From Odiellus spinosus (lineage: Eukaryota; Arthropoda; Arachnida; Opiliones; Phalangiidae), in assembly GCA_963920705.1 (NCBI GenBank), contig CAWUCO010000167.1, positions 310,001 to 374,000 of the forward strand: a DNA stretch of 64,000 nucleotides, given 5' to 3'. A program made the translations under genes and the position numbers. Positions 13,801 to 53,909 of the stretch are shown one piece after another. Positions within the stretch are counted from its first letter, which is position 1. Each line of letters starts with the position of its first letter. The notes beneath the pieces are model-generated. The model had not been told where the DNA came from. It did no database searches and saw nothing but the letters and a program-made list of their open reading frames with translations.

Positions 13801-14280
13801 CATTTGAATCCAATAATCTTGGATTTTTAAGCGTTTTTGCTTAATTTTAACCAATTTTATATTTGTCACGTTTTGGCAATTTAGACAAAACCAAAGTCAT
13901 TCGAAAGAGCAATTAATGGACAGTCTAAATAATAAGAGTTTTCAAAAATCCGTTGAAAAACAAGAAAAATATGGCCATTTCAAGAAATCATACAATATCA
14001 AAATAGTCAAATTTCAGATTTTAAAAATTCGCTTTTTGATATTATATGTTTTTTGAATTGACCATATTTTCCATGTTTTTCCACGGATTTTCCAAAACTA
14101 TTGTTTTTTAGATAGACCAATATTTGCTCTTTCGAGTGGTGTTAATTTTGTCTAAATCGCTTAAAAATCAAATGTTTTGTGTCCATTTGTATCCAATAAT
14201 CTGGGATTTTTAAGCGTTTTTGCTTAATTTTAACCAATTTTATATTTGTCACGTTTTAGCAATTTAGACAAAACCAAAGT
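10100..14280. repeat. Long-range duplicated segment, copy 1
   Basis: Recurs about 11.5 kb downstream in the same orientation. Rare shared variants are TCATCAATATC (10,161 and 21,649), TTTCGAAAGGTG with AAATGATTTG and CATTTCAATCC (about 11,070-11,130 and 22,557-22,620), GGCATTTTAGAC (11,961 and 23,832), and GATAAGTCTTGAT (about 12,220 and 24,090). The offset is 11,488 bp, then 11,871 bp after one extra monomer in copy 2. Confidence 0.85.
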
Positions 14281-18790: not shown

Positions 18791-21589
18791 AATAATCTTG
18801 GATTTTTAAGCGTTTTTGCTTAATTTTAACCAATTTTATATTTGTCACGTTTTGGCAATTTAGACAAAACCAAAGTCATTCGAAATAGCAATTAATGGAT
18901 AGTCTAAATAATAAGAGTTTTCAAAAATCCGTTGAAAAACAAGAAAAATATGGCAAATTCAAGAAATCATACAATATCAAAATAGTCAAATTTCAGATTT
19001 TAAAAATTCGCTTTTTGATATTAGATGTTTTTTGAATTGACCATATTTTCCATGTTTTTCAACGGATTTTCCAAAACTCTTGTTTTTTAGATAGACCAAT
19101 ATTTGTTCTTTCGATAGGTGTTAATTTTGTCTAAATCGCTTAAAAATCAAATGTTTTGTGTCCATTTGAATCCAATAATCTTTGATTTTTAAGCGTTTTT
19201 GCTTAATTTTAACCAATTTTATATTTGTCACGTTTTGGCAATTTAGACAAAACCAAAGTCATTCGAAAGAGCAATTAATGGACAGTCTAAATAATAAGAG
19301 TTTTCAAAAATCCGTTGAAAAACAAGAAAAATATGACCAATTCAAGAAATCATACAATATCAAAATAGTCAAATTTCAGATTTTAAAAATTCGCTTTTTG
19401 ATATTAGATATTTTTAGAATTGACCATATTTTCCATGTTTTTCAACGGATTTTCCAAAACTCTTGTTTTTTAGATAGTCCAATATTTGCTCTTTCGATAG
19501 GTGTTGATTTTGTCTAAATCGCTTAAAAATCAAATGTTTTGTGTCCATTTGAATCCAATAATCTTGGATTTTTAAGCGTTTTTGCTTAATTTTAACCAAT
19601 TTTATATTTGTCACGTTTTGGCAATTTAGACAAAACCAAAGTCATTCGAAAGAGCAATTAATGGACAGTCTAAATAATAAGAGTTTTCAAAAATCCGTTG
19701 AAAAACAAGAAAAATATGACCAATTCAAGAAATCATACAATATCAAAATAGTCAAATTACAGATTTTAAAAATTCGCTTTTTGATATTAGATGTTTTTTG
19801 AATTGGCCATATTTTCCATGTTTTTCAACGGATTTTCCAAAACTCTTGTTTTTTAGATAGTCCAATATTTTCTCTTTCGATAGGTGTTGATTTTGTCTAA
19901 ATCGCTTAAAAATCAAATGCTTTGTGTCCATTTGAATAAAATAATCATAGATTTTGAAGTGTTTTTGCTTAATTTTAACCAATTTTATATTTGTCACGTT
20001 TTGGCAATTTAGACAAAACCAAAGTCATTCGAAAGAGCAATTAATGGACAGTCTAAATAATAAGAGTTTTCAAAAATCCGTTGAAAAACAAGAAAAATAT
20101 GACCAATTCAAGAAATCATACAATATCAAAATAGTCAAATTACAGATTTTAAAAATTCGCTTTTTGATATTAGATGTTTTTTGAATTGGCCATATTTTCC
20201 ATGTTTTTCAACGGATTTTCCAAAACTCTTGTTTTTTAGATAGTCCAATATTTTCTCTTTCGATAGGTGTTGATTTTGTCTAAATCGCTTAAAAATCAAA
20301 TGTTTTGTGTCCATTTGAATCCAATAATCTTAGATTTTGAAGAGTTTTTTCTAAATTTTAACCAATTTTATATTTGTCACGTTTTGGCAATTTAGACAAA
20401 ACCAAAGTCATTCGAAAGAGCAATTAATGGACAGTCTAAATAATAAGAGTTTTCAAAAATCCGTTGAAAAACAAGAAAAATATGGCCAATTCAAAAAATC
20501 ATACAATATCAAAATAGTCAAATTTCAGATTTTAAAAATTCGCTTTTTGATATTAGATGTTTTTAGAATTGACCATATTTTCCATGTTTTTCAACGGATT
20601 TTCCAAAACTCTTGTTTTTTAGATAGACCAATATTTGCTCTTTCGATAGGTGTTGATTTTGTCTAAATCGCTTAAAAATCAAATGTTTTGTGTCCAATTG
20701 AATCCAATAATCTTGGATTTTTAAGCGTTTTTGCTTAATTTTAACCAATTTTATATTTGTCACGTTTTGGCAATTTAGACAAAACCAAAGTCTTTCGAAA
20801 GAGCAATTAATGGACAGTCTAAATAATAAGAGTTTTCAAAAATCCGTTGAAAAACAAGAAAAATATGGCCAATTCAAGAAATCAAACAATATCAAAATAG
20901 TCAAATTTCAGATTTAAAAAATTCGCTTTTTGATATTAGATGTTTTTTGAATTGACCATATTTTCCATGTTTTTCCACGGATTTTCCAAAACTCTTGTTT
21001 TTTAGATAGACCAATATTTGCTCTTTCGAGTGGTGTTAATTTTGTCTAAATCGCTTAAAAATCAAATGTTTTGTGTCCATTTGAATCCAATAATCTTGGA
21101 TTTTTAAGCGTTTTTGCTTAATTTTAACCAATTTTATATTTGTCACGTTTTGGCAATTTAGACAAAACCAAAGTCATTCGAAATAGCAATTAATGGATAG
21201 TCTAAATAATAAGAGTTTTCAAAAATCCGTTGAAAAACAAGAAAAATATGGCAAATTCAAGAAATTATACAATATCAAAATAGTCAAATTTCAGATTTTA
21301 AAAATTCGCTTTTTGATATTAGATGTTTTTTGAATTGACCATATTTTCCATGTTTTTCAACGGATTTTCCAAAACTCTTGTTTTTTAGATAGACCAATAT
21401 TTGTTCTTTCGATAGGTGTTAATTTTGTCTAAATCGCTTAAAAATCAAATGTTTTGTGTCCATTTGAATCCAATAATCTTTGATTTTTAAGCGTTTTTGC
21501 TTAATTTTAACCAATTTTATATTTGTCACGTTTTGGCAATTTAGACAAAACCAAAGTCATTCGAAAGAGCAATTAATGGACAGTCTAAA

Positions 21590-24500
21590 TAATAAGAGTT
21601 TTCAAAAATCCGTTGAAAAACAAGAAAAATATGGCCAATTCAAGAAATCATCAATATCAAAATAGTCAAATTTCACATTTTAAAAATTCGCTTTTTGATA
21701 TTAGATGTTTTTTGAATTGACCATATTTTCCATGTTTTTTAACGGATTTTCCAAAACTCTTGTTTTTTAGATAGTCCAATATTTGCTCTTTCGATAGGTG
21801 TTGATTTTGTCTAAATCGCTTAAAAATCAAATGTTTTGTGTCCATTTGAATCCAATAATCTTGGATTTTTAAGCGTTTTTGCTTAATTTTAACCAATTTT
21901 ATATTTGTCACGTTTTGGCAATTTAGACAAAACCAAAGTCATTCGAAAGAGCAATTAATGGACAGTCTAAATAATAAGAGTTTTCAAAAATCCGTTGAAA
22001 AACAAGAAAAATATGGCCAATTCAAGAAATCATACAATATCAAAATAGTCAAATTTCAGATTTTAAAAATTCGCTTTTTGATATTAGATGTTTTTTGAAT
22101 TGACCATATTTTCCATGTTTTTCCACGGATTTTCCAAAACTCTTGTTTTTTAGATATACCAATATTTGCTCTTTCGAGTGGTGTTAATTTTGTCTAAATC
22201 GCTTAAAAATCAAATGTTTTGTGTCCATTTGAATCCAATAATCTTGGATTTTTAAGCGTTTTTGCTTAATTTCAACCAATTTTATATTTGTCACGTTTTG
22301 GCAATTTAGACAAAACCAAAGTCATTCGAAAGAGCAATTAATGGACAGTCTAAATAATAAGAGTTTTCAAAAATCCGTTGAAAAACAAGAAAAATATGGC
22401 CAATTCAAGAAATCATACAATATCAAAATAGTCAAATTTCAGATTTTAAAAATTCGCTTTTTGATATTAGATGTTTTTAGAATTGACCATATTTTCCATG
22501 TTTTTCAACGGATTTTCCAAAACTCTTGTTTTTTAGATAGTCCAATATTTGCTCTTTCGAAAGGTGTTGATTTTGTCTAAATCGCTTAAAAATCAAATGA
22601 TTTGTTTCCATTTCAATCCAATAATCTTGGATTTTTAAGCGTTTTTGCTTAATTTTAACCAATTTTATATTTGTCACGTTTTGGCAATTTAGACAAAACC
22701 AAAGTCATTCGAAAGAGCAGTTAATGGACAGTCTAAATAATAAGAGTTTTCAAAAATCCGTTGAAAAACAAGAAAAAAATGGCCAATTCAAGAAATCATA
22801 CAATATCAAAATAGTCAAATTTCAGATTTTAAAAATTCGCTTTTTGATATTATATGTTTTTAGAATTGACCATATTTTCCATGTTTTTCAACGGATTTTC
22901 CAAAACTCTTGTTTTTTAGATAGTCCAATATTTGCTCTTTCGATAGGTGTTGATTTTGTCTAAATCGCTTAAAAATCAAATGTTTTGTTTCCATTTGAAT
23001 CCAATAATCTTGGATTTTTAAGCGTTTTTGCTTAATTTTAACCAATTTTATATTTGTCACGTTTTGGCAATTTAGACAAAACCAAAGTCATTCGAAAGAG
23101 CAGTTAATGGACAGTCTAAATAATAAGAGTTTTCAAAAATCCGTTGAAAAACAAGAAAAAAATGGCCAATTCAAGAAATCATACAATATCAAAATAGTCA
23201 AATTTCAGATTTTAAAAATTCGCTTTTTGATATTATATGTTTTTAGAATTGACCATATTTTCCATGTTTTTCAACGGATTTTCCAAAACTCTTGTTTTTT
23301 AGATAGTCCAATATTTGCTCTTTCGATAGGTGTTGATTTTGTCTAAATCGCTTAAAAATCAAATGTTTTGTTTCCATTTGAATCCAATAATCTTGGATTT
23401 TTAAGCGTTTTTGCTTAATTTTAACCAATTTTATATTTGTCACGTTTTGGCAATTTAGACAAAACCAAAGTCATTCGAAAGAGCAGTTAATGGACAGTCT
23501 AAATAATAAGAGTTTTCAAAAATCCGTTGAAAAACAAGAAAAATATGGCCAATTCAAGAAATCATACAATATCAAAATAGTCAAATTTCACATTTTAAAA
23601 ATTCGCTTTTTGATATTAGATGTTTTTTGAATTGACCATATTTTCCATGTTTTTTAACGGATTTTCCAAAACTCTTGTTTTTTAGATATACCAATATTTG
23701 CTCTTTCGAGTGGTGTTAATTTTGTCTAAATCGCTTAAAAATCAAATGTTTTGTGTCCATTTGAATCCAATAATCTTTGATTTTTAAGCGTTTTTGCTTA
23801 ATTTTAACCAATTTTATATTTGTCACGTTTTGGCATTTTAGACAAAACCAAAGTCATTCGAAAGAGCAATTATTGGACAGTCTAAATAATAAGAGTTTTC
23901 AAAAATCCGTTGAAAAACAAGAAAACTATGACCAATTCAAGAAATCATACAATATCAAAATAGTCAAATTACAGATTTTAAAAATTCGCTTTTTGATATT
24001 AGATGTTTTTTGAATTGGCCATATTTTCCATGTTTTTCAACGGATTTTCCAAAACTCTTGTTTTTTAGATAGTCCAATATTTGCTCTTTCGATAAGTCTT
24101 GATTTTGTCTAAATCGCTTAAAAATCAAATGTTTTGTGTCCATTTGAATCCAATAATCTTGGATTTTTAAGCGTTTTTGCTTAATTTTAACCAATTTTAT
24201 ATTTGTCACGTTTTGGCAATTTAGACAAAACCAAAGTCATTCGAAAGAGCAATTAATGGACAGTCTAAATAATAAGAGTTTTCAAAAATCCGTTGAAAAA
24301 CAAGAAAAATATGGCCAATTCAAGAAATCATACAATATCAAAATAGTCAAATTTCAGATTTTAAAAATTCGCTTTTTGATATTAGATGTTTTTTGAATTG
24401 ACCATATTTTCCATGTTTTTCCACGGATTTTCCAAAACTCTTGTTTTTTAGATATACCAATATTTGCTCTTTCGAGTGGTGTTAATTTTGTCTAAATCGC

Positions 24501-26130
24501 TTAAAAATCAAATGTTTTGTGTCCATTTGAATCCAATAATCTTGGATTTTTAAGCGTTTTTGCTTAATTTCAACCAATTTTATATTTGTCACGTTTTGGC
24601 AATTTAGACAAAACCAAAGTCATTCGAAAGAGCAATTAATGGACAGTCTAAATAATAAGAGTTTTCAAAAATCCGTTGAAAAAAAGAAAAATATGGCCAA
24701 TTCAAGAAATCATACAATATCAAAATAGTCAAATTTCAGATTTTAAAAATTCGCTTTTTGATATTATATGTTTTTAGAATTGACCATATTTTCCATGTTT
24801 TTCAACGGATTTTCCAAAACTCTTGTTTTTTAGATAGTCCAATATTTGCTCTTTCGATAGGTGTTGATTTTGTCTAAATCGCTTAAAAATCAAATGATTT
24901 GTTTCCATTTGAATCCAATAATCTTGGATTTTTAAGCGTTTTTGCTTAATTTTAACCAATTTTATATTTGTCACGTTTTGGCAATTTAGACAAAACCAAA
25001 GTCATTCGAAAGAGCAGTTAATGGACAGTCTAAATAATAAGAGTTTTCAAAAATCCGTTGAAAAACAAGAAAAAAATGGCCAATTCAAGAAATCATACAA
25101 TATCAAAATAGTCAAATTTCAGATTTTAAAAATTCGCTTTTTGATATTATATGTTTTTAGAATTGACCATATTTTCCATGTTTTTCAACGGATTTTCCAA
25201 AACTCTTGTTTTTTAGATAGTCCAATATTTGCTCTTTCGATAGGTGTTGATTTTGTCTAAATCGCTTAAAAATCAAATGTTTTGTTTCCATTTGAATCCA
25301 ATAATCTTGGATTTTTAAGCGTTTTTGCTTAATTTTAACCAATTTTATATTTGTCACGTTTTGGCAATTTAGACAAAACCAAAGTCATTCGAAAGAGCAG
25401 TTAATGGACAGTCTAAATAATAAGAGTTTTCAAAAATCCGTTGAAAAACAAGAAAAATATGGCCAATTCAAGAAATCATACCATATCAAAATAGTCAAAT
25501 TTCACATTTTAAAAATTCGCTTTTTGATATTAGATGTTTTTTGAATTGACCATATTTTCCATGTTTTTTAACGGATTTTCCAAAACTCTTGTTTTTTAGA
25601 TATTCCAATATTTGCTCTTTCGATAGGTGTTGATTTTGTCTAAATCGCTTAAAAATCAAATGTTTTGTGTCCATTTGAATCCAATAATCTTGGATTTTTA
25701 AGCGTTTTTGCTTAATTTTAACCAATTTTATATTTGTCACGTTTTGGCAATTTAGACAAAACCAAAGTCATTCGAAAGAGCAATTAATGGACAGTCTAAA
25801 TAATAAGAGTTTTCAAAAATCCGTTGAAAAACAAGAAAAATATGGCCATTTCAAGAAATCATACAATATCAAAATAGTCAAATTTCAGATTTTAAAAATT
25901 CGCTTTTTGATATTATATGTTTTTTGAATTGACCATATTTTCCATGTTTTTCCACGGATTTTCCAAAACTATTGTTTTTTAGATAGACCAATATTTGCTC
26001 TTTCGAGTGGTGTTAATTTTGTCTAAATCGCTTAAAAATCAAATGTTTTGTGTCCATTTGTATCCAATAATCTGGGATTTTTAAGCGTTTTTGCTTAATT
26101 TTAACCAATTTTATATTTGTCACGTTTTAG
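21590..26130. repeat. Long-range duplicated segment, copy 2
   Basis: Second copy of the 10.1-14.3 kb segment, with one additional GTTTCC-type monomer (22,860-23,243 region). It ends near 26,130-26,170. There it joins sequence matching the 17.7-19.4 kb region at an offset of 8,424 bp, skipping the monomer that carries TTAATGGATAG. Confidence 0.83.
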
Positions 26131-27840
26131 CAATTTAGACAAAACCAAAGTCATTCGAAAGAGCAATTAATGGACAGTCTAAATAATAAGAGTTTTCAAA
26201 AATCCGTTGAAAAACAAGAAAAATATGGCCAATTCAAAAAATCATACAATATCAAAATAGTCAAATTTCAGATTTTAAAAATTCGCTTTTTGATATTAGA
26301 TGTTTTTAGAATTGACCATATTTTCCATGTTTTTCAACGGATTTTCCAAAACTTTTGTTTTTTAGATAGTCCAATATTTGTTCTTTCGATAGGTGTTGAT
26401 TATGTCTAAATCGCTTAAAAATCAAATGTTTTGTGTCCATTTGAATAAAATAATCATAGATTTTGAAGTGTTTTTGCTTAATTTTAACCAATTTTATATT
26501 TGTCACGTTTTGGCAATTTAGACAAAACCAAAGTCATTCGAAAGAGCAATTAATGGACAGTCTTAATAATAAGAGTTTTCAAAAATCCGTTGAAAAACAA
26601 GAAAAATATGGCCAATTCAAGAAATCATACAATATCAAAATAGTCATATTTCAGATTTTAAAAATTCGCTTTTTGATATTAGATGTTTTTTGAATTGACC
26701 ATATTTTCCATGTTTTTCAACGGATTTTCCAAAACTATTGTTTTTTAGATAGTCCAATATTTGCTCTTTCGATAGGTGTTGATTTTGTCTAAATCGCTTA
26801 AAAATCAAATGTTTTGTGTCCAATTGAATCCAATAATCTTGGATTTTTAAGCGTTTTTGCTTAATTTTAACCAATTTTATATTTGTCACGTTTTGGCAAT
26901 TTAGACAAAACCAAAGTCTTTCGAAAGAGCAATTAATGGACAGTCTAAATAATAAGAGTTTTCAAAAATCCGTTGAAAAACAAGAAAAATATGGCCAATT
27001 CAAGAAATCAAACAATATCAAAATAGTCAAATTTCAGATTTTAAAAATTCGCTTTTTGATATTAGATGTTTTTTGAATTGACCATATTTTCCATGTTTTT
27101 CCACGGATTTTCCAAAACTCTTGTTTTTTAGATAGACCAATATTTGCTCTTTCGAGTGGTGTTAATTTTGTCTAAATCGCTTAAAAATCAAATGTTTTGT
27201 GTCCATTTGAATCCAATAATCTTGGATTTTTAAGCGTTTTTGCTTAATTTTAACCAATTTTATATTTGTCACGTTTTGGCAATTTAGACAAAACCAAAGT
27301 CATTCGAAATAGCAATTAATGGATAGTCTAAATAATAAGAGTTTTCAAAAATCCGTTGAAAAACAAGAAAAATATGGCAAATTCAAGAAATCATACAATA
27401 TCAAAATAGTCAAATTTCAGATTTTAAAAATTCGCTTTTTGATATTAGATGTTTTTTGAATTGACCATATTTTCCATGTTTTTCAACGGATTTTCCAAAA
27501 CTCTTGTTTTTTAGATAGACCAATATTTGTTCTTTCGATAGGTGTTAATTTTGTCTAAATCGCTTAAAAATCAAATGTTTTGTGTCCATTTGAATCCAAT
27601 AATCTTTGATTTTTAAGCGTTTTTGCTTAATTTTAACCAATTTTATATTTGTCACGTTTTGGCAATTTAGACAAAACCAAAGTCATTCGAAAGAGCAATT
27701 AATGGACAGTCTAAATAATAAGAGTTTTCAAAAATCCGTTGAAAAACAAGAAAAATATGACCAATTCAAGAAATCATACAATATCAAAATAGTCAAATTT
27801 CAGATTTTAAAAATTCGCTTTTTCATATTAGATATTTTTA
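26130..27840. repeat. Second copy of the 17.7-19.4 kb segment
   Basis: Matches 17,706-19,416 at an offset of 8,424 bp (17,882 to 26,306; 18,220 to 26,644; 19,182 to 27,606). Shared rare variants are AGTCATATTTCAG, AAGTCTTTCGAAAG, GAAATCAAACAATATC and TATGGCAAATTCAAG. Confidence 0.8.
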
Positions 27841-28707
27841 GAATTGACCATATTTTCCATGTTTTTCAACGGATTTTCCAAAACTCTTGTTTTTTAGATA
27901 GACCAATATTTGTTCTTTCGATAGGTGTTAATTTTGTCTAAATCGCTTAAAAATCAAATGTTTTGTGTCCATTTGAATCCAATAATCTTTGATTTTTAAG
28001 CGTTTTTGCTTAATTTTAACCAATTTTATATTTGTCACGTTTTGGCAATTTAGACAAAACCAAAGTCATTCGAAAGAGCAATTAATGGACAGTCTAAATA
28101 ATAAGAGTTTTCAAAAATCCGTTGAAAAACAAGAAAAATATGACCAATTCAAGAAATCATACAATATCAAAATAGTCAAATTTCAGATTTTAAAAATTCG
28201 CTTTTTCATATTAGATATTTTTAGAATTGACCATATTTTCCATGTTTTTCAACGGATTTTCCAAAACCCTTGTTTTTTAGATAGTCCAATATTTGCTCTT
28301 TCGATAGGTGTTGATTTTGTCTAAATCGCTTAAAAATCAAATGTTTTGTGTCCATTTGAATCCAATAATCTTTGATTTTTAAGCGTTTTTGCTTAATTTT
28401 AACCAATTTTATATTTGTCACGTTTTGCCAATTTAGACAAAACCAAAGTCATTCGAAAGAGCAATTAATGGACAGTCTAAATAATAAGAGTTTTCAAAAA
28501 TCCGTTGAAAAACAAGAAAAATATGACCAATTCAAGAAATCATACAATATCAAAATAGTCAAATTTCAGATTTTAAAAATTCGCTTTTTGATATTAGATA
28601 TTTTTAGAATTGACCATATTTTCCATGTTTTTCAACGGATTTTCCAAAACTCTTGTTTTTTAGATAGTCCAATATTTGCTCTTTCGATAGGTGTTGATTT
28701 TGTCTAA
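27606..28707. repeat. Local run of three near-identical monomers
   Basis: Reading frames and substitutions repeat at 27,606, 27,989 and 28,372, each 383 bp apart. The first two share the rare TTTTTCATATTAGATATTTTTAG-type change near 27,825 and 28,208. The corresponding position of the donor segment (19,182) has a single monomer, so this is a local gain. Confidence 0.8.
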
Positions 28708-29903
28708 ATCGCTTAAAAATCAAATGTTTTGTGTCCATTTGAATCCAATAATCTTGGATTTTTAAGCGTTTTTGCTTAATTTTAACCAATTTTATATTTG
28801 TCACGTTTTGGCAATTTAGACAAAACCAAAGTCATTCGAAAGAGCAATTAATGGACAGTCTAAATAATAAGAGTTTTCAAAAATCCGTTGAAAAACAAGA
28901 AAAATATGGCCAATTCAAAAAATCATACAATATCAAAATAGTCAAATTTCAGATTTTAAAAATTCGCTTTTTGATATTAGATGTTTTTAGAATTGACCAT
29001 ATTTTCCATGTTTTTCAACGGATTTTCCAAAACTCTTGTTTTTTAGATAGTCCAATATTTTCTCTTTCGATAGGTGTTGATTTTGTCTAAATCGCTTAAA
29101 AATCAAATGTTTTGTGTCCATTTGAATCCAATAATCTTAGATTTTGAAGTGTTTTTTCTAAATTTTAACCAATTTTATATTTGTCACGTTTTGGCAATTT
29201 AGACAAAACCAAAGTCATTCGAAAGAGCAATTAATGGACAGTCTAAATAATAAGAGTTTTCAAAAATCCGTTGAAAAACAAGAAAAATATGGCCAATTCA
29301 AAAAATCATACAATATCAAAATAGTCAAATTTCAGATTTTAAAAATTCGCTTTTTGATATTAGATGTTTTTAGAATTGACCATATTTTCCATGTTTTTCA
29401 ACGGATTTTCCAAAACTCTTGTTTTTTAGATAGACCAATATTTGCTCTTTCGATAGGTGTTGATTTTGTCTAAATCGCTTAAAAATCAAATGTTTTGTGT
29501 CCAATTGAATCCAATAATCTTGGATTTTTAAGCGTTTTTGCTTAATTTTAACCAATTTTATATTTGTCACGTTTTGGCAATTTAGACAAAACCAAAGTCT
29601 TTCGAAAGAGCAATTAATGGACAGTCTAAATAATAAGAGTTTTCAAAAATCCGTTGAAAAACAAGAAAAATATGGCCAATTCAAGAAATCAAACAATATC
29701 AAAATAGTCAAATTTCAGATTTTAAAAATTCGCTTTTTGATATTAGATGTTTTTTGAATTGACCATATTTTCCATGTTTTTCAACGGATTTTCCAAAACT
29801 CTTGTTTTTTAGATAGACCAATATTTGTTCTTTCGATAGGTGTTAATTTTGTCTAAATCGCTTAAAAATCAAATGTTTTGTGTCCATTTGAATCCAATAA
29901 TCT

Positions 29904-30239
29904 TTGATTTTTAAGCGTTTTTGCTTAATTTTAACCAATTTTATATTTGTCACGTTTTGGCAATTTAGACAAAACCAAAGTCATTCGAAAGAGCAATTAA
30001 TGGACAGTCTAAATAATAAGAGTTTTCAAAAATCCGTTGAAAAACAAGAAAAATATGACCAATTCAAGAAATCATACAATATCAAAATAGTCAAATTTCA
30101 GATTTTAAAAATTCGCTTTTTGATATTAGATATTTTTAGAATTGACCATATTTTCCATGTTTTTCAACGGATTTTCCAAAACTCTTGTTTTTTAGATAGT
30201 CCAATATTTGCTCTTTCGATAGGTGTTGATTTTGTCTAA
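29904..30239 (+). other. Representative plus-strand satellite reading frame (not called a gene)
   Basis: An open frame of 111 codons spans arm A', spacer 2 and the next arm A. Equivalent frames of 73-111 codons recur each 383 bp. They begin in the TTTTGCTTAATTTTAACC region and contain FRQNQ, SKEQ, NKSF, KSVEK and KYGQFKK. The frame length varies with single substitutions, for example TTTTTTGAA against TTTTTAGAA near the end. It is broken in many monomers by a 1-bp loss (GAAAAAAAG for GAAAAACAAG near 1,055, 2,552, 4,464, 4,845 and 8,251). No ribosomal context, intron structure or recognisable domain is seen. I treat it as a fortuitous or fossil frame. Confidence 0.6.
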
Positions 30240-30244
30240 ATCGC
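30117..30244 (+). repeat. Arm A of the intramonomer inverted repeat
   Basis: Left half of the palindromic monomer. It runs from TTTTTGATATT through GAATTGACCATATTTT, the 17-bp GTTTTTCAACGGATTTT block, AAAACTCTT, TTTAGA, GTCCA and TTGCTCTTTCGA to TTTTGTCTAAATCGC. The same landmarks occur in the same order on the minus strand of the second arm. The least conserved stretch between the arms is the ten bases after TCTTTCGA. Confidence 0.88.
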
Positions 30245-30300
30245 TTAAAAATCAAATGTTTTGTGTCCATTTGAATCCAATAATCTTGGATTTTTAAGCG
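30242..30300. repeat. Perfect 12-bp inverted repeat at the main dyad centre
   Basis: CGCTTAAAAATC at 30,242-30,253 and GATTTTTAAGCG at 30,289-30,300 are exact reverse complements separated by 35 bp. Inside the loop, TCCAA (30,276-30,280) and TTGGA (30,286-30,290) form another short stem around TAATC. The motif is present in most monomers. It is weakened in the subtype that has GATTTTGAAGTG in place of the right half. Confidence 0.85.
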
Positions 30301-30311
30301 TTTTTGCTTAA
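30294..30311. repeat. Small hairpin TTAAGC-GTTTTT-GCTTAA
   Basis: Perfect 6-bp stem with a 6-base loop. It overlaps the right half of the 12-bp inverted repeat, so the two foldings are mutually exclusive in a single strand. It recurs in every monomer with the TTTTTAAGCG variant. Confidence 0.75.
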
Positions 30312-30341
30312 TTTTAACCAATTTTATATTTGTCACGTTTT

Positions 30342-30470
30342 GGCAATTTAGACAAAACCAAAGTCATTCGAAAGAGCAATTAATGGACAGTCTAAATAAT
30401 AAGAGTTTTCAAAAATCCGTTGAAAAACAAGAAAAATATGGCCAATTCAAAAAATCATACAATATCAAAA
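30342..30470 (-). repeat. Arm A' of the intramonomer inverted repeat
   Basis: Second half-unit, inverted relative to arm A. Read on the plus strand it gives GCAATTTAGACAAAACC, TCGAAAGAGCAATTAATGGAC, AAGAGTTTTCAAAAATCCG, TTGAAAAACAAG, TATGGCCAATTCAA and AATATCAAAA. Each is the reverse complement, with few changes, of the matching block in arm A. It pairs with the arm A of its own monomer across spacer 1, and equally with the arm A of the next monomer across spacer 2. Confidence 0.88.
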
Positions 30471-32044
30471 TAGTCAAATTTCAGATTTTAAAAATTCGCT
30501 TTTTGATATTAGATGTTTTTAGAATTGACCATATTTTCCATGTTTTTCAACGGATTTTCCAAAACTCTTGTTTTTTAGATAGACCAATATTTGCTCTTTC
30601 GATAGGTGTTGATTTTGTCTAAATCGCTTAAAAATCAAATGTTTTGTGTCCAATTGAATCCAATAATCTTGGATTTTTAAGCGTTTTTGCTTAATTTTAA
30701 CCAATTTTATATTTGTCACGTTTTGGCAATTTAGACAAAACCAAAGTCTTTCGAAAGAGCAATTAATGGACAGTCTAAATAATAAGAGTTTTCAAAAATC
30801 CGTTGAAAAACAAGAAAAATATGGCCAATTCAAGAAATCAAACAATATCAAAATAGTCAAATTTCAGATTTTAAAAATTCGCTTTTTGATATTAGATGTT
30901 TTTTGAATTGACCATATTTTCCATGTTTTTCAACGGATTTTCCAAAACTCTTGTTTTTTAGATAGACCAATATTTGTTCTTTCGATAGGTGTTAATTTTG
31001 TCTAAATCGCTTAAAAATCAAATGTTTTGTGTCCATTTGAATCCAATAATCTTTGATTTTTAAGCGTTTTTGCTTAATTTTAACCAATTTTATATTTGTC
31101 ACGTTTTGGCAATTTAGACAAAACCAAAGTCATTCGAAAGAGCAATTAATGGACAGTCTAAATAATAAGAGTTTTCAAAAATCCGTTGAAAAACAAGAAA
31201 AATATGACCAATTCAAGAAATCATACAATATCAAAATAGTCAAATTTCAGATTTTAAAAATTCGCTTTTTGATATTAGATATTTTTAGAATTGACCATAT
31301 TTTCCATGTTTTTCAACGGATTTTCCAAAACTCTTGTTTTTTAGATAGTCCAATATTTGCTCTTTCGATAGGTGTTGATTTTGTCTAAATCGCTTAAAAA
31401 TCAAATGTTTTGTGTCCATTTGAATCCAATAATCTTGGATTTTTAAGCGTTTTTGCTTAATTTTAACCAATTTTATATTTGTCACGTTTTGGCAATTTAG
31501 ACAAAACCAAAGTCATTCGAAAGAGCAATTAATGGACAGTCTAAATAATAAGAGTTTTCAAAAATCCGTTGAAAAACAAGAAAAATATGGCCAATTCAAG
31601 AAATCATACAATATCAAAATAGTTAAATTTCAGATTTTAAAAATTCGCTTTTTGATATTAGATGTTTTTTGAATTGACCATATTTTCCATGTTTTTCAAC
31701 GGATTTTCCAAAACTCTTGTTTTTTAGATAGACCAATATTTGTTCTTTCGATAGGTGTTAATTTTGTCTAAATCGCTTAAAAATCAAATGTTTTGTGTCC
31801 ATTTGAATCCAATAATCTTTGATTTTTAAGCGTTTTTGCTTAATTTTAACCAATTTTATATTTGTCACGTTTTGGCAATTTAGACAAAACCAAAGTCATT
31901 CGAAAGAGCAATTAATGGACAGTCTAAATAATAAGAGTTTTCAAAAATCCGTTGAAAAACAAGAAAAAATATGACCAATTCAAGAAATCATACAATATCA
32001 AAATAGTCAAATTACAGATTTTAAAAATTCGCTTTTTGATATTA

Positions 32045-35000
32045 GATGTTTTTTGAATTGGCCATATTTTCCATGTTTTTCAACGGATTTTCCAAAACTC
32101 TTGTTTTTTAGATAGTCCAATATTTTCTCTTTCGATAGGTGTTGATTTTGTCTAAATCGCTTAAAAATCAAATGTTTTGTGTCCATTTGAATCCAATAAT
32201 CTTAGATTTTGAAGTGTTTTTTCTAAATTTTAACCAATTTTATATTTGTCACGTTTTGGCAATTTAGACAACACCAAAGTCATTCGAAAGAGCAATTAAT
32301 GGACAGTCTAAATAATAAGAGTTTTCAAAAATCCGTTGAAAAACAAGAAAAATATGGCCAATTCAAAAAATCATACAATATCAAAATAGTCAAATTTCAG
32401 ATTTTAAAAATTCGCTTTTTGATATTAGATGTTTTTAGAATTGACCATATTTTCCATGTTTTTCAACGGATTTTCCAAAACTCTTGTTTTTTAGATAGTC
32501 CAATATTTGTTCTTTCGATAGGTGTTGATTATGTCTAAATCGCTTAAAAATCAAATGTTTTGTGTCCATTTGAATCCAATAATCTTGGATTTTTAAGCGT
32601 TTTTGCTTAATTTTAACCAATTTTATATTTGTCACGTTTTGGCAATTTAGACAAAACCAAAGTCATTCGAAAGAGCAATTAATGGACAGTCTAAATAATA
32701 AGAGTTTTCAAAAATCCGTTGAAAAACAAGAAAAATATGGCCAATTCAAGAAATCATACAATATCAAAATAGTCAAATTTCAGATTTTAAAAATTCGCTT
32801 TTTGATATTATATGTTTTTTGAATTGACCATATTTTCTATGTTTTTCCACGGATTTTCCAAAACTATTGTTTTTTAGATAGACCAATATTTGCTCTTTCG
32901 AGTGGTGTTAATTTTGTCTAAATCGCTTAAAAATCAAATGTTTTGTGTCCATTTGAATCCAATAATCTTGGATTTTTAAGCGTTTTTGCTTAATTTTAAC
33001 CAATTTTATATTTGTCACGTTTTGGCAATTTAGACCAAACCAAAGTCATACGAAAGAGATATTAATGGACAGTCTAAATAATAAGAGTTTTCAAAAATCC
33101 GTTGAAAAACAAGAAAAATATGACCAATTCAAGAAATCATACAATATCAAAATAGTCAAATTACATATTTTAAAAATTCGCTTTTTGATATTAGATGTTT
33201 TTTGAATTGGCCATATTTTCCATGTTTTTCAACGGATTTTCCAAAACTCTTGTTTTTTAGATAGTCCAATATTTTCTCTTTCGATAGGTGTTGATTTTGT
33301 CTAAATCGCTTAAAAATCAAATGTTTTGTGTCCATTTGAATCCAATAATCTTAGATTTTGAAGTGTTTTTTCTAAATTTTAACCAATTTTATATTTGTCA
33401 CGTTTTGGCAATTTAGACAAAACCAAAGTCATTCGAAAGAGCAATTAATGGACAGTCTAAATAATAAGAGTTTTCAAAAATCCGTTGAAAAACAAGAAAA
33501 ATATGGCCAATTCAAAAAATCATACAATATCAAAATAGTCAAATTTCAGATTTTAAAAATTCGCTTTTTGATATTAGATGTTTTTAGAATTGACCATATT
33601 TTCCATGTTTTTCAACGGATTTTCCAAAACTCTTGTTTTTTAGATAGTCCAATATTTGTTCTTTCGATAGGTGTTGATTATGTCTAAATCGCTTAAAAAT
33701 CAAATGTTTTGTGTCCATTTGAATCCAATAATCTTGGATTTTTAAGCGTTTTTGCTTAATTTTAACCAATTTAATATTTGTCACGTTTTGGCAATTTAGA
33801 CAAAACCAAAGTCATTCGAAAGAGCAATTAATGGACAGTCTAAATAATAAGAGTTTTCAAAAATCCGTTGAAAAACAAGAAAAATATGGCCAATTCAAGA
33901 AATCATACAATATCAAAATAGTCAAATTTCAGATTTTAAAAATTCGCTTTTTGATATTATATGTTTTTTGAATTGACCATATTTTCCATGTTTTTCCACG
34001 GATTTTCCAAAACTATTGTTTTTTAGATAGACCAATATTTGCTCTTTCGAGTGGTGTTAATTTTGTCTAAATCGCTTAAAAATCAAATGTTTTGTGTCCA
34101 TTTGAATCCAATAATCTTGGATTTTTAAGCGTTTTTGCTTAATTTTAACCAATTTTATATTTGTCACGTTTTGGCAATTTAGACCAAACCAAAGTCATTC
34201 GAAAGAGCAATTAATGGACAGTCTAAATAATAAGAGTTTTCAAAAATCCGTTGAAAAACAAGAAAAATATGACCAATTCAAGAAATCATACAATATCAAA
34301 ATAGTCAAATTACAGATTTTAAAAATTCGATTTTTGATATTAGATGTTTTTTGAATTGGCCATATTTTCCATGTTTTTCAACGGATTTTCCAAAACTCTT
34401 GTTTCTTAGATAGTCCAATATTTTCTCTTTCGATAGGTGTTGATTTTGTCTAAATCGCTTAAAAATCAAATGTTTTGTGTCCATTTGAATCCAATAATCT
34501 TAGATTTTGAAGTGTTTTTTCTTAATTTTAACCAATTTTATATTTGTCACGTTTTGGCAATTTAGACAAAACCAAAGTCATTCGAAAGAGCAATTAATGG
34601 ACAGTCTAAATAATAAGAGTTTTCAAAAATCCGTTGAAAAACAAGAAAAATATGGCCAATTCAAAAAATCATACAATATCAAAATAGTCAAATTTCAGAT
34701 TTTAAAAATTCGCTTTTTGATATTAGATGTTTTTAGAATTGACCATATTTTCCATGTTTTTCAACGGATTTTCCAAAACTCTTGTTTTTTAGATAGTCCA
34801 ATATTTGTTCTTTCGATAGGTGTTGATTTTGTCTAAATCGCTTAAAAATCAAATGTTTTGTGTCCATTTGAATCCAATAATCTTGGATTTTTAAGCGTTT
34901 TTGCTTAATTTTAACCAATTTTATATTTGTCACGTTTTGGCAATTTAGACAAAACCAGTCATTCGAAAGAGCAATTAATGGACAGTCTAAATAATAAGAG
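32045..35000. repeat. Three-monomer higher-order repeat, second type, 1,149 bp
   Basis: Monomer sets recur at 32,299 and 33,448, and at 32,435, 33,584 and 34,733. Markers are GAATTGGCCATATT, GTTTTTTCTAAATT, GGTGTTGATTATGTC and TAGACCAAACC. Single differences, such as GACAACACC near 32,268 and CAATTTAATATT near 33,768, distinguish copies. Confidence 0.82.
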
Positions 35001-37414
35001 TTTTCAAAAATCCGTTGAAAAACAAGAAAAATATGACCAATTCAAGAAATCATACAATATCAAAATAGTCAAATTACAGATTTTAAAAATTCGCTTTTTG
35101 ATATTAGATGTTTTTTGAATTGGCCATATTTTCCATGTTTTTCAACGGATTTTCCAAAACTCTTGTTTTTTAGATAGTCCAATATTTTCTCTTTCGATAG
35201 GTGTTGATTTTGTCTAAATCGCTTAAAAATCAAATGTTTTGTGTCCATTTGAATCCAATAATCTAAGATTTTGAAGTGTTTTTGCTTAATTATAACCAAT
35301 TTTATATTTGTCACGTTTTGGCAATTTAGACAAAACCAAAGTCATTCGAAAGAGCAATTAATGGACAGTCTAAATAATAAGAGTTTTCAAAAATCCGTTG
35401 AAAAACAAGAAAAATATGACCAATTCAAGAAATCATACAATATCAAAATAGTCAAATTTCAGATTTTAAAAATTCGCTTTTTGATATTAGATGTTTTTAG
35501 AATTGACCATATTTTCCATGTTTTTCAACGGATTTTCCAAAACTCTTGTTTTTTAGATAGTCCAATATTTGTTCTTTCGATAGGTGTTGATTATGTCTAA
35601 ATCGCTTAAAAATCAAATGTTTTGTGTCCATTTGAATCCAATAATCTTGGATTTTTAAGCGTTTTTGCTTAATTTTAACCAATTTTATATTTGTCACGTT
35701 TTGGCAATTTAGACAAAACCAAAGTCATTCGAAAGAGCAATTAATGGACAGTCTAAATAATAAGAGTTTTCAAAAATCCGTTGAAAAACAAGAAAAATAT
35801 GGCCAATTCAAGAAATCATACAATATCAAAATAGTCAAATTTCAGATTTTAAAAATTCGCTTTTTGATATTATATGTTTTTTGAATTGACCATATTTTCC
35901 ATGTTTTTCCACGGATTTTCCAAAACTATTGTTTTTTAGATAGACCAATATTTGCTCTTTCGAGTGGTGTTAATTTTGTCTAAATCGCTTAAAAATCAAA
36001 TGTTTTGTGTCCATTTGAATCCAATAATCTTGGATTTTTAAGCGTTTTTGCTTAATTTTAACCAATTTTATATTTGTCACGTTTTGGCAATTTAGACCAA
36101 ACCAAAGTCATTCGAAAGAGCAATTAATGGACAGTCTAAATAATAAGAGTTTTCAAAAATCCGTTGAAAAACAAGAAAAATATGACCAATTCAAGAAATC
36201 ATACAATATCAAAATAGTCAAATTACAGATTTTAAAAATTCGATTTTTGATATTAGATGTTTTTTGAATTGGCCATATTTTCCATGTTTTTCAACGGATT
36301 TTCCAAAACTCTTGTTTCTTAGATAGTCCAATATTTTCTCTTTCGATAGGTGTTGATTTTGTCTAAATCGCTTAAAAATCAAATGTTTTGTGTCCATTTG
36401 AATCCAATAATCTTAGATTTTGAAGTGTTTTTTCTTAATTTTAACCAATTTTATATTTGTCACGTTTTGGCAATTTAGACAAAACCAAAGTCATTCGAAA
36501 GAGCAATTAATGGACAGTCTAAATAATAAGAGTTTTCAAAAATCCGTTGAAAAACAAGAAAAATATGGCCAATTCAAAAAATCATACAATATCAAAATAG
36601 TCAAATTTCAGATTTTAAAAATTCGCTTTTTGATATTAGATGTTTTTAGAATTGACCATATTTTCCATGTTTTTCAACGGATTTTCCAAAACTCTTGTTT
36701 TTTAGATAGTCCAATATTTGTTCTTTCGATAGGTGTTGATTTTGTCTAAATCGCTTAAAAATCAAATGTTTTGTGTCCATTTGAATCCAATGATCTTGGA
36801 TTTTTAAGCGTTTTTGCTTAATTTTAACCAATTTTATATTTGTCACGTTTTGGCAATTTAGACAAAACCAGTCATTCGAAAGAGCAATTAATGGACAGTC
36901 TAAATAATAAGAGTTTTCAAAAATCCGTTGAAAAACAAGAAAAATATGACCAATTCAAGAAATCATACAATATCAAAATAGTCAAATTACAGATTTTAAA
37001 AATTCGCTTTTTGATATTAGATGTTTTTTGAATTGGCCATATTTTCCATGTTTTTCAACGGATTTTCCAAAACTCTTGTTTTTTAGATAGTCCAATATTT
37101 TCTCTTTCGATAGGTGTTGATTTTGTCTAAATCGCTTAAAAATCAAATGTTTTGTGTCCATTTGAATCCAATAATCTAAGATTTTGAAGTGTTTTTGCTT
37201 AATTTTAACCAATTTTATATTTGTCACGTTTTGGCAATTTAGACAAAACCAAAGTCATTCGAAAGAGCAATTAATGGACAGTCTAAATAATAAGAGTTTT
37301 CAAAAATCCGTTGAAAAACAAGAAAAATATGACCAATTCAAGAAATCATACAATATCAAAATAGTCAAATTTCAGATTTTAAAAATTCGCTTTTTGATAT
37401 TATATGTTTTTTGA
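33584..37414. repeat. Five-monomer higher-order repeat, 1,913 bp
   Basis: Landmarks at 33,584 and 35,497, 34,507 and 36,420, 34,733 and 36,646, 35,069 and 36,982, and 35,271 and 37,184 are all 1,913 bp apart. This equals five monomers less 2 bp. The loss is the AA missing from AAAACCAGTCATTC (34,950s and 36,860s). TTAAAAATTCGATTTTTG and CTTGTTTCTTAGATAG are further private markers. Confidence 0.85.
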
Positions 37415-40190
37415 ATTGACCATATTTTCCATGTTTTTCCACGGATTTTCCAAAACTATTGTTTTTTAGATAGACGAATATTTGCTCTTTCGAGTGGTGT
37501 TAATTTTGTCTAAATCGCTTAAAAATCAAATGTTTTGTTTCCATTTGAATCCAATAATCTTGGATTTTTAAGCGTTTTTGCTTAATTTTAACCAATTTTA
37601 TATTTGTCACGTTTTGGCAATTTAGACAAAACCAAAGTAATTCGAAAGAGCAATTAATGGACAGTCTAAATAATAAGAGTTTTCAAAAATCCGTTGAAAA
37701 ACACGAAAAATATGACCAATTCAATAAATCATACAATATCAAAATAGTCAAATTTCAGATTTTAAAAATTCGCTTTTTGATATTAGATGTTTTTAGAATT
37801 GACCATATTTTCCATGTTTTTCAACGGATTTTCCAAAACTCTTGTTTTTTAGATAGTCCAATATTTGTTCTTTCGATAGGTGTTGATTATGTCTAAATCG
37901 CTTAAAAATCAAATGTTTTGTGTCCATTTGAATCCAATAATCTTGGATTTTTAAGCGTTTTTGCTTAATTTTAACCAATTTTATATTTGTCACGTTTTGG
38001 CAATTTAGACAAAACCAAAGTCATTCGAAAGAGCAATTAATGGACAGTCTAAATAATAAGAGTTTTCAAAAATCCGTTGAAAAACAAGAAAAATATGGCC
38101 AATTCAAGAAATCATACAATATCAAAATAGTCAAATTTCAGATTTTAAAAATTCGCTTTTTGATATTATATGTTTTTTGAATTGACCATATTTTCCATGT
38201 TTTTCCACGGATTTTCCAAAACTATTGTTTTTTAGATAGACCAATATTTGCTCTTTCGAGTGGTGTTAATTTTGTCTAAATCGCTTAAAAATCAAATGTT
38301 TTGTGTCCATTTGAATCCAATAATCTTGGATTTTTAAGCGTTTTTGCTTAATTTTAACCAATTTTATATTTGTCACGTTTTGGCAATTTAGACCAAACCA
38401 AAGTCATTCGAAAGAGCAATTAATGGACAGTCTAAATAATAAGAGTTTTCAAAAATCCGTTGAAAAACAAGAAAAATATGACCAATTCAAGAAATCATAC
38501 AATATCAAAATAGTCAAATTACAGATTTTAAAAATTCGATTTTTGATATTAGATGTTTTTTGAATTGGCCATATTTTCCATGTTTTTCAACGGATTTTCC
38601 AAAACTCTTGTTTCTTAGATAGTCCAATATTTTCTCTTTCGATAGGTGTTGATTTTGTCTAAATCGCTTAAAAATCAAATGTTTTGTGTCCATTTGAATC
38701 CAATAATCTTAGATTTTGAAGTGTTTTTTCTTAATTTTAACCAATTTTATATTTGTCACGTTTTGGCAATTTAGACAAAACCAAAGTCATTCGAAAGAGC
38801 AATTAATGGACAGTCTAAATAATAAGAGTTTTCAAAAATCCGTTGAAAAACAAGAAAAATATGGCCAATTCAAAAAATCATACAATATCAAAATAGTCAA
38901 ATTTCAGATTTTAAAAATTCGCTTTTTGATATTAGATGTTTTTAGAATTGACCATATTTTCCATGTTTTTCAACGGATTTTCCAAAACTCTTGTTTTTTA
39001 GATAGTCCAATATTTGTTCTTTCGATAGGTGTTGATTTTGTCTAAATCGCTTAAAAATCAAATGTTTTGTGTCCATTTGAATCCAATGATCTTGGATTTT
39101 TAAGCGTTTTTGCTTAATTTTAACCAATTTTATATTTGTCACGTTTTGGCAATTTAGACAAAACCAGTCATTCGAAAGAGCAATTAATGGACAGTCTAAA
39201 TAATAAGAGTTTTCAAAAATCCGTTGAAAAACAAGAAAAATATGACCAATTCAAGAAATCATACAATATCAAAATAGTCAAATTACAGATTTTAAAAATT
39301 CGCTTTTTGATATTAGATGTTTTTTGAATTGGCCATATTTTCCATGTTTTTCAACGGATTTTCCAAAACTCTTGTTTTTTAGATAGTCCAATATTTTCTC
39401 TTTCGATAGGTGTTGATTTTGTCTAAATCGCTTAAAAATCAAATGTTTTGTGTCCATTTGAATCCAATAATCTAAGATTTTGAAGTGTTTTTGCTTAATT
39501 TTAACCAATTTTATATTTGTCACGTTTTGGCAATTTAGACAAAACCAAAGTCATTCGAAAGAGCAATTAATGGACAGTCTAAATAATAAGAGTTTTCAAA
39601 AATCCGTTGAAAAACAAGAAAAATATGACCAATTCAAGAAATCATACAATATCAAAATAGTCAAATTTCAGATTTTAAAAATTCGCTTTTTGATATTATA
39701 TGTTTTTTGAATTGACCATATTTTCCATGTTTTTCCACGGATTTTCCAAAACTATTGTTTTTTAGATAGACGAATATTTGCTCTTTCGAGTGGTGTTAAT
39801 TTTGTCTAAATCGCTTAAAAATCAAATGTTTTGTTTCCATTTGAATCCAATAATCTTGGATTTTTAAGCGTTTTTGCTTAATTTTAACCAATTTTATATT
39901 TGTCACGTTTTGGCAATTTAGACAAAACCAAAGTAATTCGAAAGAGCAATTAATGGACAGTCTAAATAATAAGAGTTTTCAAAAATCCGTTGAAAAACAC
40001 GAAAAATATGACCAATTCAATAAATCATACAATATCAAAATAGTCAAATTTCAGATTTTAAAAATTCGCTTTTTGATATTAGATGTTTTTAGAATTGACC
40101 ATATTTTCCATGTTTTTCAACGGATTTTCCAAAACTCTTGTTTTTTAGATAGTCCAATATTTGCTCTTTCGATAGGTGTTGATTTTGTCT
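35900..40190. repeat. Six-monomer higher-order repeat, 2,296 bp
   Basis: Landmarks at 36,420 and 38,716, 36,646 and 38,942, 37,184 and 39,480, and 37,657 and 39,953 are 2,296 bp apart, six monomers less 2 bp. Shared rare variants include CCAATGATCTTGG (36,787 and 39,083), TAGACGAATATTTG, AAAGTAATTCG, AAACACGAAAAATATG and CAATAAATCATAC. The unit is the five-monomer unit plus one extra monomer. Confidence 0.87.
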
Positions 40191-40239
40191 AAATCGCTTA
40201 AAAATCAAATGTTTTGTGTCCATTTGAATCCAATAATCT

Positions 40240-43200
40240 TAGATTTTGAAGTGTTTTTGCTTAATTTTAACCAATTTTATATTTGTCACGTTTTGGCAAT
40301 TTAGACCAAACCAAAGTCATTCGAAAGAGCAATTAATGGACAGTCTAAATAATAAGAGTTTTCAAAAATCCGTTGAAAAACAAGAAAAATATGGCCAATT
40401 CAAGAAATCATACAACATCAAAGTAGTCAAATTTCAGATTTTAAAAATTCGCTTTTTGATATTAGATGTTTTTTGAATTGACCATATTTTCCATGTTTTT
40501 CAACGGATTTTCCAAAATTCTTGTTTTTTAGATAGTCCAATATTTGTTCTTTCGATAGGTGTTGATTTTGGATAATCGCTTAAAAATCAAATGTTTTGTG
40601 TCCATTTGAATCCAATAATCTTGGATTTTTAAGCGTTTTTGCTTAATTTTAACCAATTTTATATTTGTCACGTTTTGGCAATTTAGACAAAACCAAAGTC
40701 ATTCGAAAGAGCAATTAATGAACAGTCTAAATAATAAGAGTTTTCAAAAATCCGTTGAAAAACAAGAAAAATATGGCCAATTCAAGAAATCATATAATAT
40801 CAAAATAGTCAAATTTCAGATTTTAAAAATTCGCTTTTTGATATTAGATGTTTTTTGAATTGACCATATTTTCCATGTTTTTCAACGGATTTTCCAAAAC
40901 TCTTTTTTTAGATAGTCCAATATTTGCTCTTTCGATAGGTGTTGATTTTGTCTAAATCGCTTAAAAATCAAATGTTTTGTGTCCATTTGAATCCAATAAT
41001 CTTAGATTTTGAAGTGTTTTTGCTTAATTTTAACCAATTTTATATTTGTCACGTTTTGGCAATTTAGACAAAACCAAAGTCATTCGAAAGAGCAATTAAT
41101 GGACAGTCTAAATAATAAGAGTTTTCAAAAATCCGTTGAAAAACAAGAAAAATATGGCCAATTCAAGAAATCATACAATATCAAAATAGTCAAATTTCAG
41201 ATTTTAAAAATTCGCTTTTTGATATTAGATGTTTTTAGAATTGACCATATTTTCCATGTTTTTCAACGGATTTTCCAAAACTCTTGTTTTTTAGATAGTC
41301 CAATATTTGTTCTTTCGATATTTGTTGATTTTGTCTAAGTCGCTTAAAAATCAAATGTTTTGTGTCCATTTGAATCCAATAATCTTGGATTTTTAAGCGT
41401 TTTTGCTTAATTTTAACCAATTTTATATTTGTCACGTTTTGGCAATTTAGACAAAACCAAAGTCATTCGAAAGAGCAATTAATGAACAGTCTAAATAATA
41501 AGAGTTTTCAAAAATCCGTTGAAAAACAAGAAAAATATGGCCAATTCAAGAAATCATATAATATCAAAATAGTCAAATTTCAGATTTTAAAAATTCGCTT
41601 TTTGATATTAGATGTTTTTTGAATTGACCATATTTTCCATGTTTTTCAACGGATTTTCCAAAACTCTTGTTTTTTAGATAGTCCAATATTTGCTCTTTCG
41701 ATAGGTGTTGATTTTGCCTAAATCGCTTAAAAATCAAATGTTTTGTGTCCATTTGAATCCAATAATCTTAGATTTTGAAGTGTTTTTGCTTAATTTTAAC
41801 CAATTTTATATTTGTCACGTTTTGGCAATTTAGACAAAACCAAAGTCATTCGAAAGAGCAATTAATGGACAGTCTAAATAATAAGAGTTTTCAAAAATCC
41901 GTTGAAAAACAAGAAAAATATGGCCAATTCAAGAAATCATACAATATCAAAATAGTCAAATTTCAGATTTTAAAAATTCGCTTTTTGATATTAGATGTTT
42001 TTAGAATTGACCATATTTTCCATGTTTTTCAACGGATTTTCCAAAACTCTTGTTTTTTAGATAGTCCAATATTTGCTCTTTCGATAGGTGTTGATTTTGT
42101 CTAAATCGCTTAAAAATCAAATGTTTTGTGTCCATTTGAATCCGATAATCTTGGATTTTTAAGCGTTTTTGCTTAATTTTAACCAATTTTATATTTGTCA
42201 CGTTTTGGCAATTTAGACAAAACCAAAGTCATTCGAAAGAGCAATTAATGAACAGTCTAAATAATAAGAGTTTTCAAAAATCCGTTGAAAAACAAGAAAA
42301 ATATGGCCAATTCAAGAAATCATATAATATCAAAATAGTCAAATTTCAGATTTTAAAAATTCGCTTTTTGATATTAGATGTTTTTTGAATTGACCATATT
42401 TTCCATGTTTTTCAACGGATTTTCCAAAACTCTTGTTTTTTAGATAGTCCAATATTTGCTCTTTCGATAGGTGTTGATTTTGCCTAAATCGCTTAAAAAT
42501 CAAATGTTTTGTGTCCATTTGAATCCAATAATCTTAGATTTTGAAGTGTTTTTGCTTAATTTTAACCAATTTTATATTTGTCACGTTTTGGCAATTTAGA
42601 CAAAACCAAAGTCATTCGAAAGAGCAATTAATGGACAGTCTAAATAATAAGAGTTTTCAAAAATCCGTTGAAAAACAAGAAAAATATGGCCAATTCAAGA
42701 AATCATACAATATCAAAATAGTCAAATTTCAGATTTTAAAAATTCGCTTTTTGATATTAGATGTTTTTAGAATTGACCATATTTTCCATGTTTTTCAACG
42801 GATTTTCCAAAATTCTTGTTTTTTAGATAGTCCAATATTTGTTCTTTCGATAGGTGTTGATTTTGGATAATCGCTTAAAAATCAAATGTTTTGTGTCCAT
42901 TTGAATCCAATAATCTTGGATTTTTAAGCGTTTTTGCTTAATTTTAACCAATTTTATATTTGTCACGTTTTGGCAATTTAGACAAAACCAAAGTCATTCG
43001 AAAGAGCAATTAATGAACAGTCTAAATAATAAGAGTTTTCAAAAATCCGTTGAAAAACAAGAAAAATATGGCCAATTCAAGAAATCATATAATATCAAAA
43101 TAGTCAAATTTCAGATTTTAAAAATTCGCTTTTTGATATTAGATGTTTTTTGAATTGACCATATTTTCCATGTTTTTCAACGGATTTTCCAAAACTCTTG

Positions 43201-53210: not shown

Positions 53211-53385
53211 AAACAACTGCTATGTCCTAGATGCTAAATCCAAAAACCATGTTTTCCTGAATACCGTACATTTGATTAAAAATATTATAGTTAGTTCATT
53301 TACGAAACAATACCCTCTTTCCTAAATTTTTTTAACCAAACCTTCACAAGGGCTTCCTGTTTCAGAACATATTGTCTCAAAAGAA

Positions 53386-53876: not shown

Positions 53877-53909
53877 AAATCATTTAAAAAAACGTTTATC
53901 TCCATATCA

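Follow-up and report, generated by a model that had tools for sequence, protein, structure and literature searches.

The window, a stretch of 64,000 nt on contig C168 (C168:310001-374000) of the Odiellus spinosus assembly (443 Mb, 286 contigs), is occupied by a head-to-tail array of a 383-bp satellite and by one mobile element of foldback-like type, which interrupts a monomer (Table 1). The monomer is built of two arms of ~128 bp, A and A', which are inverted copies of each other, and of two spacers of unequal length. Our monomer set contains 657 full-length strong matches, 161 from the window (of 165 plus-strand matches there) and 496 from positions 1-200 kb of C168, and leaves out shorter matches as well as the weak reverse matches that are caused by the dyad. 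We detected no strong higher-order repeat, the lag identities staying between 0.965 and 0.970 for lags 1-30. Shortened monomers of 340-344 bp recur every nine or ten monomers, at window positions 2283, 6072 and 9478, which suggests local segmental duplication, and 7 identical monomers stand in a row at 11354 and again at 23225. A direct repeat of ~40 bp inside the monomer was considered and rejected, as its best offset reached 0.371 compared with up to 0.392 in shuffled sequences.

Table 1. Features of the satellite array and of one example monomer, in window coordinates
Feature	Position	Strand	Basis
383-bp satellite array, part 1	1..52810	+	TRF 138.3 copies, 94% matches; nhmmer monomers
383-bp satellite array, part 2, past the insert	54342..64000	+	TRF 25.3 copies, 96% matches
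Arm A, example monomer	30117..30244	+	Aligns to A' in 106/127 columns
97-bp spacer with axis 1 (about 30293)	30245..30341	.	Shuffle test, axis position
Arm A', inverted copy of A	30342..30470	-	Alignment to A
29-bp spacer with axis 2 (about 30485)	30471..30499	.	Shuffle test, axis position
Perfect 18-bp block, A copy	30158..30175	+	Exact in 493/657 monomers, rank 193/366 18-mers
Perfect 18-bp block, A' copy	30412..30429	-	Exact in 585/657 monomers, rank 36/366
Foldback-like mobile element within a monomer	52811..54341	.	9-bp target duplication, inverted ends

Extent of the inverted arms

Aligned to the reverse complement of A', arm A of the example monomer is identical in 83.5% of the columns, with 3 gaps, and none of 500 dinucleotide-preserving shuffles reached the alignment score of 134 (mean -46, sd 12, maximum -16). 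This agrees well with the initial annotation, in which the arms had been estimated by hand to be about 84% identical. The perfect block noted there within the arms exists too, but it measures 18 bp and not 17. The block adds nothing to the case for the arms, because an identity of 83.5% predicts a run of that length: when 106 matches are placed randomly in 127 columns, 55% of the placements contain a run of at least 18. The block was rejected as a constrained binding site, its length being expected and its exactness in A being ordinary among the 18-mers of the monomer.

Two dyad axes are present per monomer, spaced 191 and 192 bp, in line with the two dyad centres per 383 bp that had been described, and the TRF copy numbers give about 327 centres for the array, close to the ~325 first estimated. 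The whole unit is identical to its own reverse complement at 286 of 373 positions. Full palindromy of the monomer was discarded, since the arms carry the reverse matches (73-74% over ~353 bp) and the spacers do no better than shuffles: 216 of 1000 shuffles were as good as the 97-bp spacer and 556 of 1000 as good as the 29-bp spacer. For 128-bp stretches with axis 2 or axis 1 at their centre, long enough to take in arm sequence, 0 and 3 of 1000 shuffles did as well, respectively. The description of the array as a chain of near-palindromes therefore holds for the arms, about two thirds of the unit, but not for the spacers, both of which are without symmetry above chance. Likewise, a clean inverted dimer is not shown, as inversion is confined to the two ~128-bp arms and the spacers between them differ in length. 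Around axis 1, where the monomer is comparatively variable, two short perfect hairpins (30274-30292 and 30294-30311) lie back to back.

Age of the arms and pairing between them

Within one monomer, A and A' are 81.3% identical (range 77.2-85.4; 161 window monomers), whereas sampled pairs of equivalent arms from the window share 96.0% (A/A) and 97.9% (A'/A'). Equivalent arms are thus more alike than A and A', as had been claimed from inspection of the sequence. A tree of the 322 window arms separates them 161/161 into an A and an A' clade, by a branch of 0.26 with a support of 1.0 and without any intermingling. The same split (67/67) was obtained when 7 full monomers from contig C5 were analyzed with 60 sampled monomers from C168; the C5 monomers come from two places 35 kb apart, are 92-95% identical to the consensus and have A/A' identities of 93-101 of 122-125 columns. 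The arms align far above the shuffled background and their clades do not mix, so neither outcome named in advance as refuting the initial annotation occurred. The separate clades place the inverted duplication before the last common ancestor of the monomers sampled. Because concerted evolution resets the age of monomers, the earlier statement that the duplication predates tandem amplification can be taken only to mean that it predates this ancestor. The antiquity of the "ancient inverted dimer" is upheld in this sense, but its description as a dimer is not. The variability of A and A' in the window (0.040 vs 0.022) did not differ significantly (p=0.16).

None of five tests pointed to maintenance of pairing between the arms. 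The arms of one monomer were no more alike (0.813) than the arms of different window monomers in sampled pairs (0.814). Variability at paired and at spacer sites was similar both in the window (0.028 vs 0.026, p=0.62) and in all 657 monomers (0.034 vs 0.030, p=0.25), and inter-arm conversion tracts spanning multiple sites were not observed beyond those in shuffles. At the 21 sites that differ between the arms, window variants counted by copies often carry the base of the other arm (26/32 and 57/87 for A; 32/38 and 9/12 for A'); counted by site, the shares are 5/9 and 4/6 in the window and 3/6 and 4/5 in all 657 monomers. These variants could stem from exchange between the arms or be retained ancestral bases. 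As they form no multi-site tracts in excess of shuffles, they do not demonstrate recent conversion, and retained ancestral bases would explain them. A weak correlation (0.28 in the window, 0.40 in all monomers) links the smoothed diversity of A to that of A' and could be due to shared constraint or to shared composition.

Single-strand folding of both dyads was far better than that of shuffles (z -13.5 and -15.7), and 21 inverted 10-mer pairs were counted compared with a maximum of 12 in 300 shuffles. A long inverted repeat must give both results; they imply that hairpins are possible whenever the strands separate. Extrusion as two hairpins would regain 47% of the duplex energy at axis 2 and 44% at axis 1, at a cost of 180-232 kcal/mol. 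Some centromere satellites are enriched in short (<10 bp) dyads and non-B DNA (Kasinathan and Henikoff 2018, as cited in PMC13081366). Here, the consensus monomer contains 8 perfect 6-bp stems with loops of 3-12, compared with 5.1 ± 3.3 in shuffles (60 of 300 had as many), by a measure that differs from the published one for short dyads. The suggestion that the array is a strong candidate for dyad or non-B behaviour hence found no support in the tests of pairing, conversion, short hairpins and energy. The symmetry is thus probably an inherited architecture, with no sign of preserved arm pairing.

Genomic context and associated mobile elements

Exact matches to the 18-bp block numbered 126,013 (63,150 forward and 62,863 reverse), and the reversed pattern, used as a control, gave 0. 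From the rate of 1.63 block matches per 383 bp in C168 1-200 kb plus the window, we extrapolate to ~77,000 satellite monomers, or ~30 Mb. Satellite was found in three parts of C168, namely 1-200 kb, the window and 1.000-1.0012 Mb; a different tandem repeat, with a unit of ~40 bp by eye, occupies the right end of the contig (1329501-1330000). Among the matches listed, contigs C1-C4 hold 58 exact block matches (13, 23, 14 and 8) in six short places, and on C5 the matches extend from ~1.80 Mb, counted from the left end, as far as 1.84 Mb or beyond. The four large contigs C1, C2, C3 and C5 have (TTAGG)n at their right ends. In the first 500 bp, no telomere repeat was found on C3 and C5, and C2 reads N; the left end of C1 (1-500) shows a mixed TCAGG/TTAGG block in both orientations (CCTGA/TCAGG), and its right end is pure TTAGG. 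A scan of viral contigs for exact 32-mers of the satellite gave 0 matches. We found no description of the 383-bp satellite in the literature searched, a search that was not exhaustive and does not prove absence. A 16,074-bp contig contains COX1 and is read by the invertebrate mitochondrial code, and contig C17 carries a cluster of several nuclear copies of mitochondrial COX1 pieces.

The array on C168 is in minus orientation over 1-70,705; from 70,706 onward, as far as 200,000 at least, it is in plus orientation. This is the one switch examined, seen in C168 1-200 kb. At 70,705, non-equivalent monomer columns (373 to 231) meet with a 4-bp overlap. The 24-mer across this junction, with at most 1 mismatch allowed, occurs at one place in the whole assembly; the junction of the examined switch is accordingly not a conserved inversion site with many copies. 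An assembly fault could account for the switch. Given a correct assembly, it would be a further case of a satellite macro-dyad outside Tribolium, to which, according to PMC13081366, the documented cases had been confined until then.

The insert in the window lies between two copies of the 9-bp target duplication TTGATTTTG (52802-52810 and 54342-54350), and its inverted ends of ~395 nt are built of 16-bp tandem repeats. Its middle has at least 51 matches in the genome, three of them on C168. No satellite was detected near the insert copies on C137, C283, C274 and C199, in stretches of 1.2-1.3 kb at a distance of 1-2 kb.

Five of the six short places with block matches on C1-C4 belong to one palindromic mobile element; the sixth is a truncated piece at 1.80 Mb of C1. 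Our reading of this element is based on one copy read through both ends (C2) and one read in large part (C1). The C2 copy (2548867-2553497, within C2:2545901-2556500) is 4,631 bp long and begins with GGCTCCGTCAACTTGG, its inverted ends match at 98.8% over 1,452 bp, and it is flanked on both sides by CCATTGA, read by eye as a 7-bp target duplication. In thirteen copies both ends are exact, at a distance of 3.6-5.8 kb; these copies lie on C1, C2 (2), C3, C4, C5 (2), C7 (2), C14 and C16 (3). With a 960-bp end piece as query, 25 of the 60 matches listed span all 960 bases at 99-100% identity, so that the element has spread recently.

The core of the palindromic element consists of satellite monomers with one orientation switch. 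An assembly scan located this core switch at 14 places, all within copies of the element (all 13 exactly ended copies and a copy on C13 for which no exact right end was found), and at 0 places in arrays. Nine element monomers from two copies retain these arms, their majority sequence giving 106/127, and form no clade apart from 200 sampled array monomers, the best all-element clade comprising 5/9 with a support of 0.75. A 10.7-kb relative on C7 has ends with 1 mismatch and is without the core switch; 2.5 kb of its middle (C7:12547001-12549500) contain no satellite match and an open frame of 597 aa, which hit 0 Pfam families and is a possible transposase. Because the core junction occurs in copies of the element and in no array, capture of the satellite by the element is likelier than seeding of arrays from it. 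A single, recent capture fits better than seeding and is put forward as a lead. The palindromic transposon with its satellite core offers a concrete route for a major satellite into chromosome arms.

Origin of the unit and comparison with known satellites

We assign a probability of about 75% to the reading that the repeat is a major satellite whose inverted arms are inherited and whose unit is homogenised whole, no pairing constraint being detected. An ancestral unit would have gained the ~128-bp segment twice, in opposite orientations, between unrelated spacers of 97 and 29 bp, and this two-arm unit would then have been amplified head to tail, with homogenisation probably acting on the entire 383 bp. 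In-register exchange of whole units would let A and A' evolve as the two separate lineages that differ in the example monomer. The arms, their clades and the array are observations, as is the absence of a detected pairing constraint, whereas this origin of the duplication, this mechanism of exchange and the placing of the array in (peri)centromeric heterochromatin are inferred.

The arms might instead be a functional centromeric dyad that aids CenH3 loading, by forming hairpins or cruciforms or by positioning back-to-back nucleosomes 191-192 bp apart. We consider this unlikely. The strong single-strand folding and the axis spacing, which is near a nucleosome repeat, would agree with it. Against it, short hairpins were not enriched by the measure used, extrusion is costly, and neither pairing constraint nor conversion tracts were detected. 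The CENP-B box has the consensus NTTCGNNNNANNCGGGN, and the best match in the consensus monomer has 2 mismatches at defined positions, which is not a good match. On C5 the satellite lies toward the end without telomere repeat, as a centromeric location would allow, whereas the few and short block places listed for C1-C4 speak against it. A point in favour is a CenH3-like frame at C8:14476886-14477110 (region C8:14476700-14477200), which is 52% identical to H3 of the same genome. The frame covers the histone-fold part only, the N-terminal tail not being found. In the matched stretch it exceeds H3 by one residue and falls one residue short of CENP-A; the best matches among solved structures are CENP-A/H3 chimeras, an H3.3, a Cse4 construct and CENP-A. 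The lineage thus seems to keep a CenH3, which makes centromere chromatin profiling feasible. Should the satellite turn out to be centromeric, our results would speak against a need to maintain long dyads.

It is also conceivable, though in our judgement likewise unlikely, that the unit began as a MITE- or foldback-like element with inverted ends of ~128 bp and a middle of 97 bp, which became tandem together with 29 bp of neighbouring DNA. The asymmetric, unrelated spacers fit inverted ends, an interior and a flank better than a clean dimer, and the genome contains two further dispersed families whose inverted ends are long. Among the places inspected, non-systematically, none held a solitary copy delimited by the ends of the arms; the piece at C1:1800196 is truncated and holds ~1.6 monomers, and the palindromic element contains several diverged monomers rather than one founder unit. 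As described in PMC4079207, the foldback transposon Tetris of Drosophila virilis, an element with long inverted ends whose tandem repeats also occur in arrays as the TIR-220 satellite, is a precedent for a transposon-derived satellite. The palindromic element resembles it in having long inverted ends and tandem repeats that are also found as an array; Tetris supplied its satellite, whereas here the element more likely captured one. A further reading, in which the two axes would make the array a series of nucleosome-length units facing opposite ways and able to load CenH3 in either orientation, and the recently spread palindromic transposon would export satellite blocks to the arms as possible seeds of new heterochromatin or centromeres, is a long shot.

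Long inverted subunits are already known from insect satellites, and the present satellite is of this kind, as a long head-to-tail, high-copy array with inverted subunits above chance; what is clearly added here is the negative result on dyad maintenance. With hundreds of long-arm monomers, in which no pairing constraint was detected, the satellite serves as a natural experiment on whether selection acts on dyad symmetry or the symmetry is simply inherited. Dyads have been predicted in satellites of several insects, with a role described as not established in PMC8122249. The major satellite of Tribolium brevicornis has a monomer of 1061 bp with inverted segments of ~470 bp (Mravinac et al. 2005, as cited in PMC13081366 and PMC8122249). 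Both it and the satellite studied here are abundant and have long inverted subunits within the monomer, the latter with its shorter arms in 383 bp, a comparison made by description only.

TmSat2 of Tribolium madens (704 bp, with ~300-bp inverted segments derived from a 110-bp unit; PMC13081366) is similar in that a long dyad lies inside the monomer and the arrays change orientation. Its inversion sites are reported in the same source to be conserved over thousands of places, unlike the examined switch on C168 with its single place in the assembly. In Trichogramma brassicae, a 385-bp satellite contains inverted repeats of 80 bp (Landais et al. 2000, as cited in PMC13081366 and PMC8122249). Compared by description only, it shares with ours a strikingly similar monomer length and an internal inverted repeat, which in our case is longer, with arms of ~128 bp.
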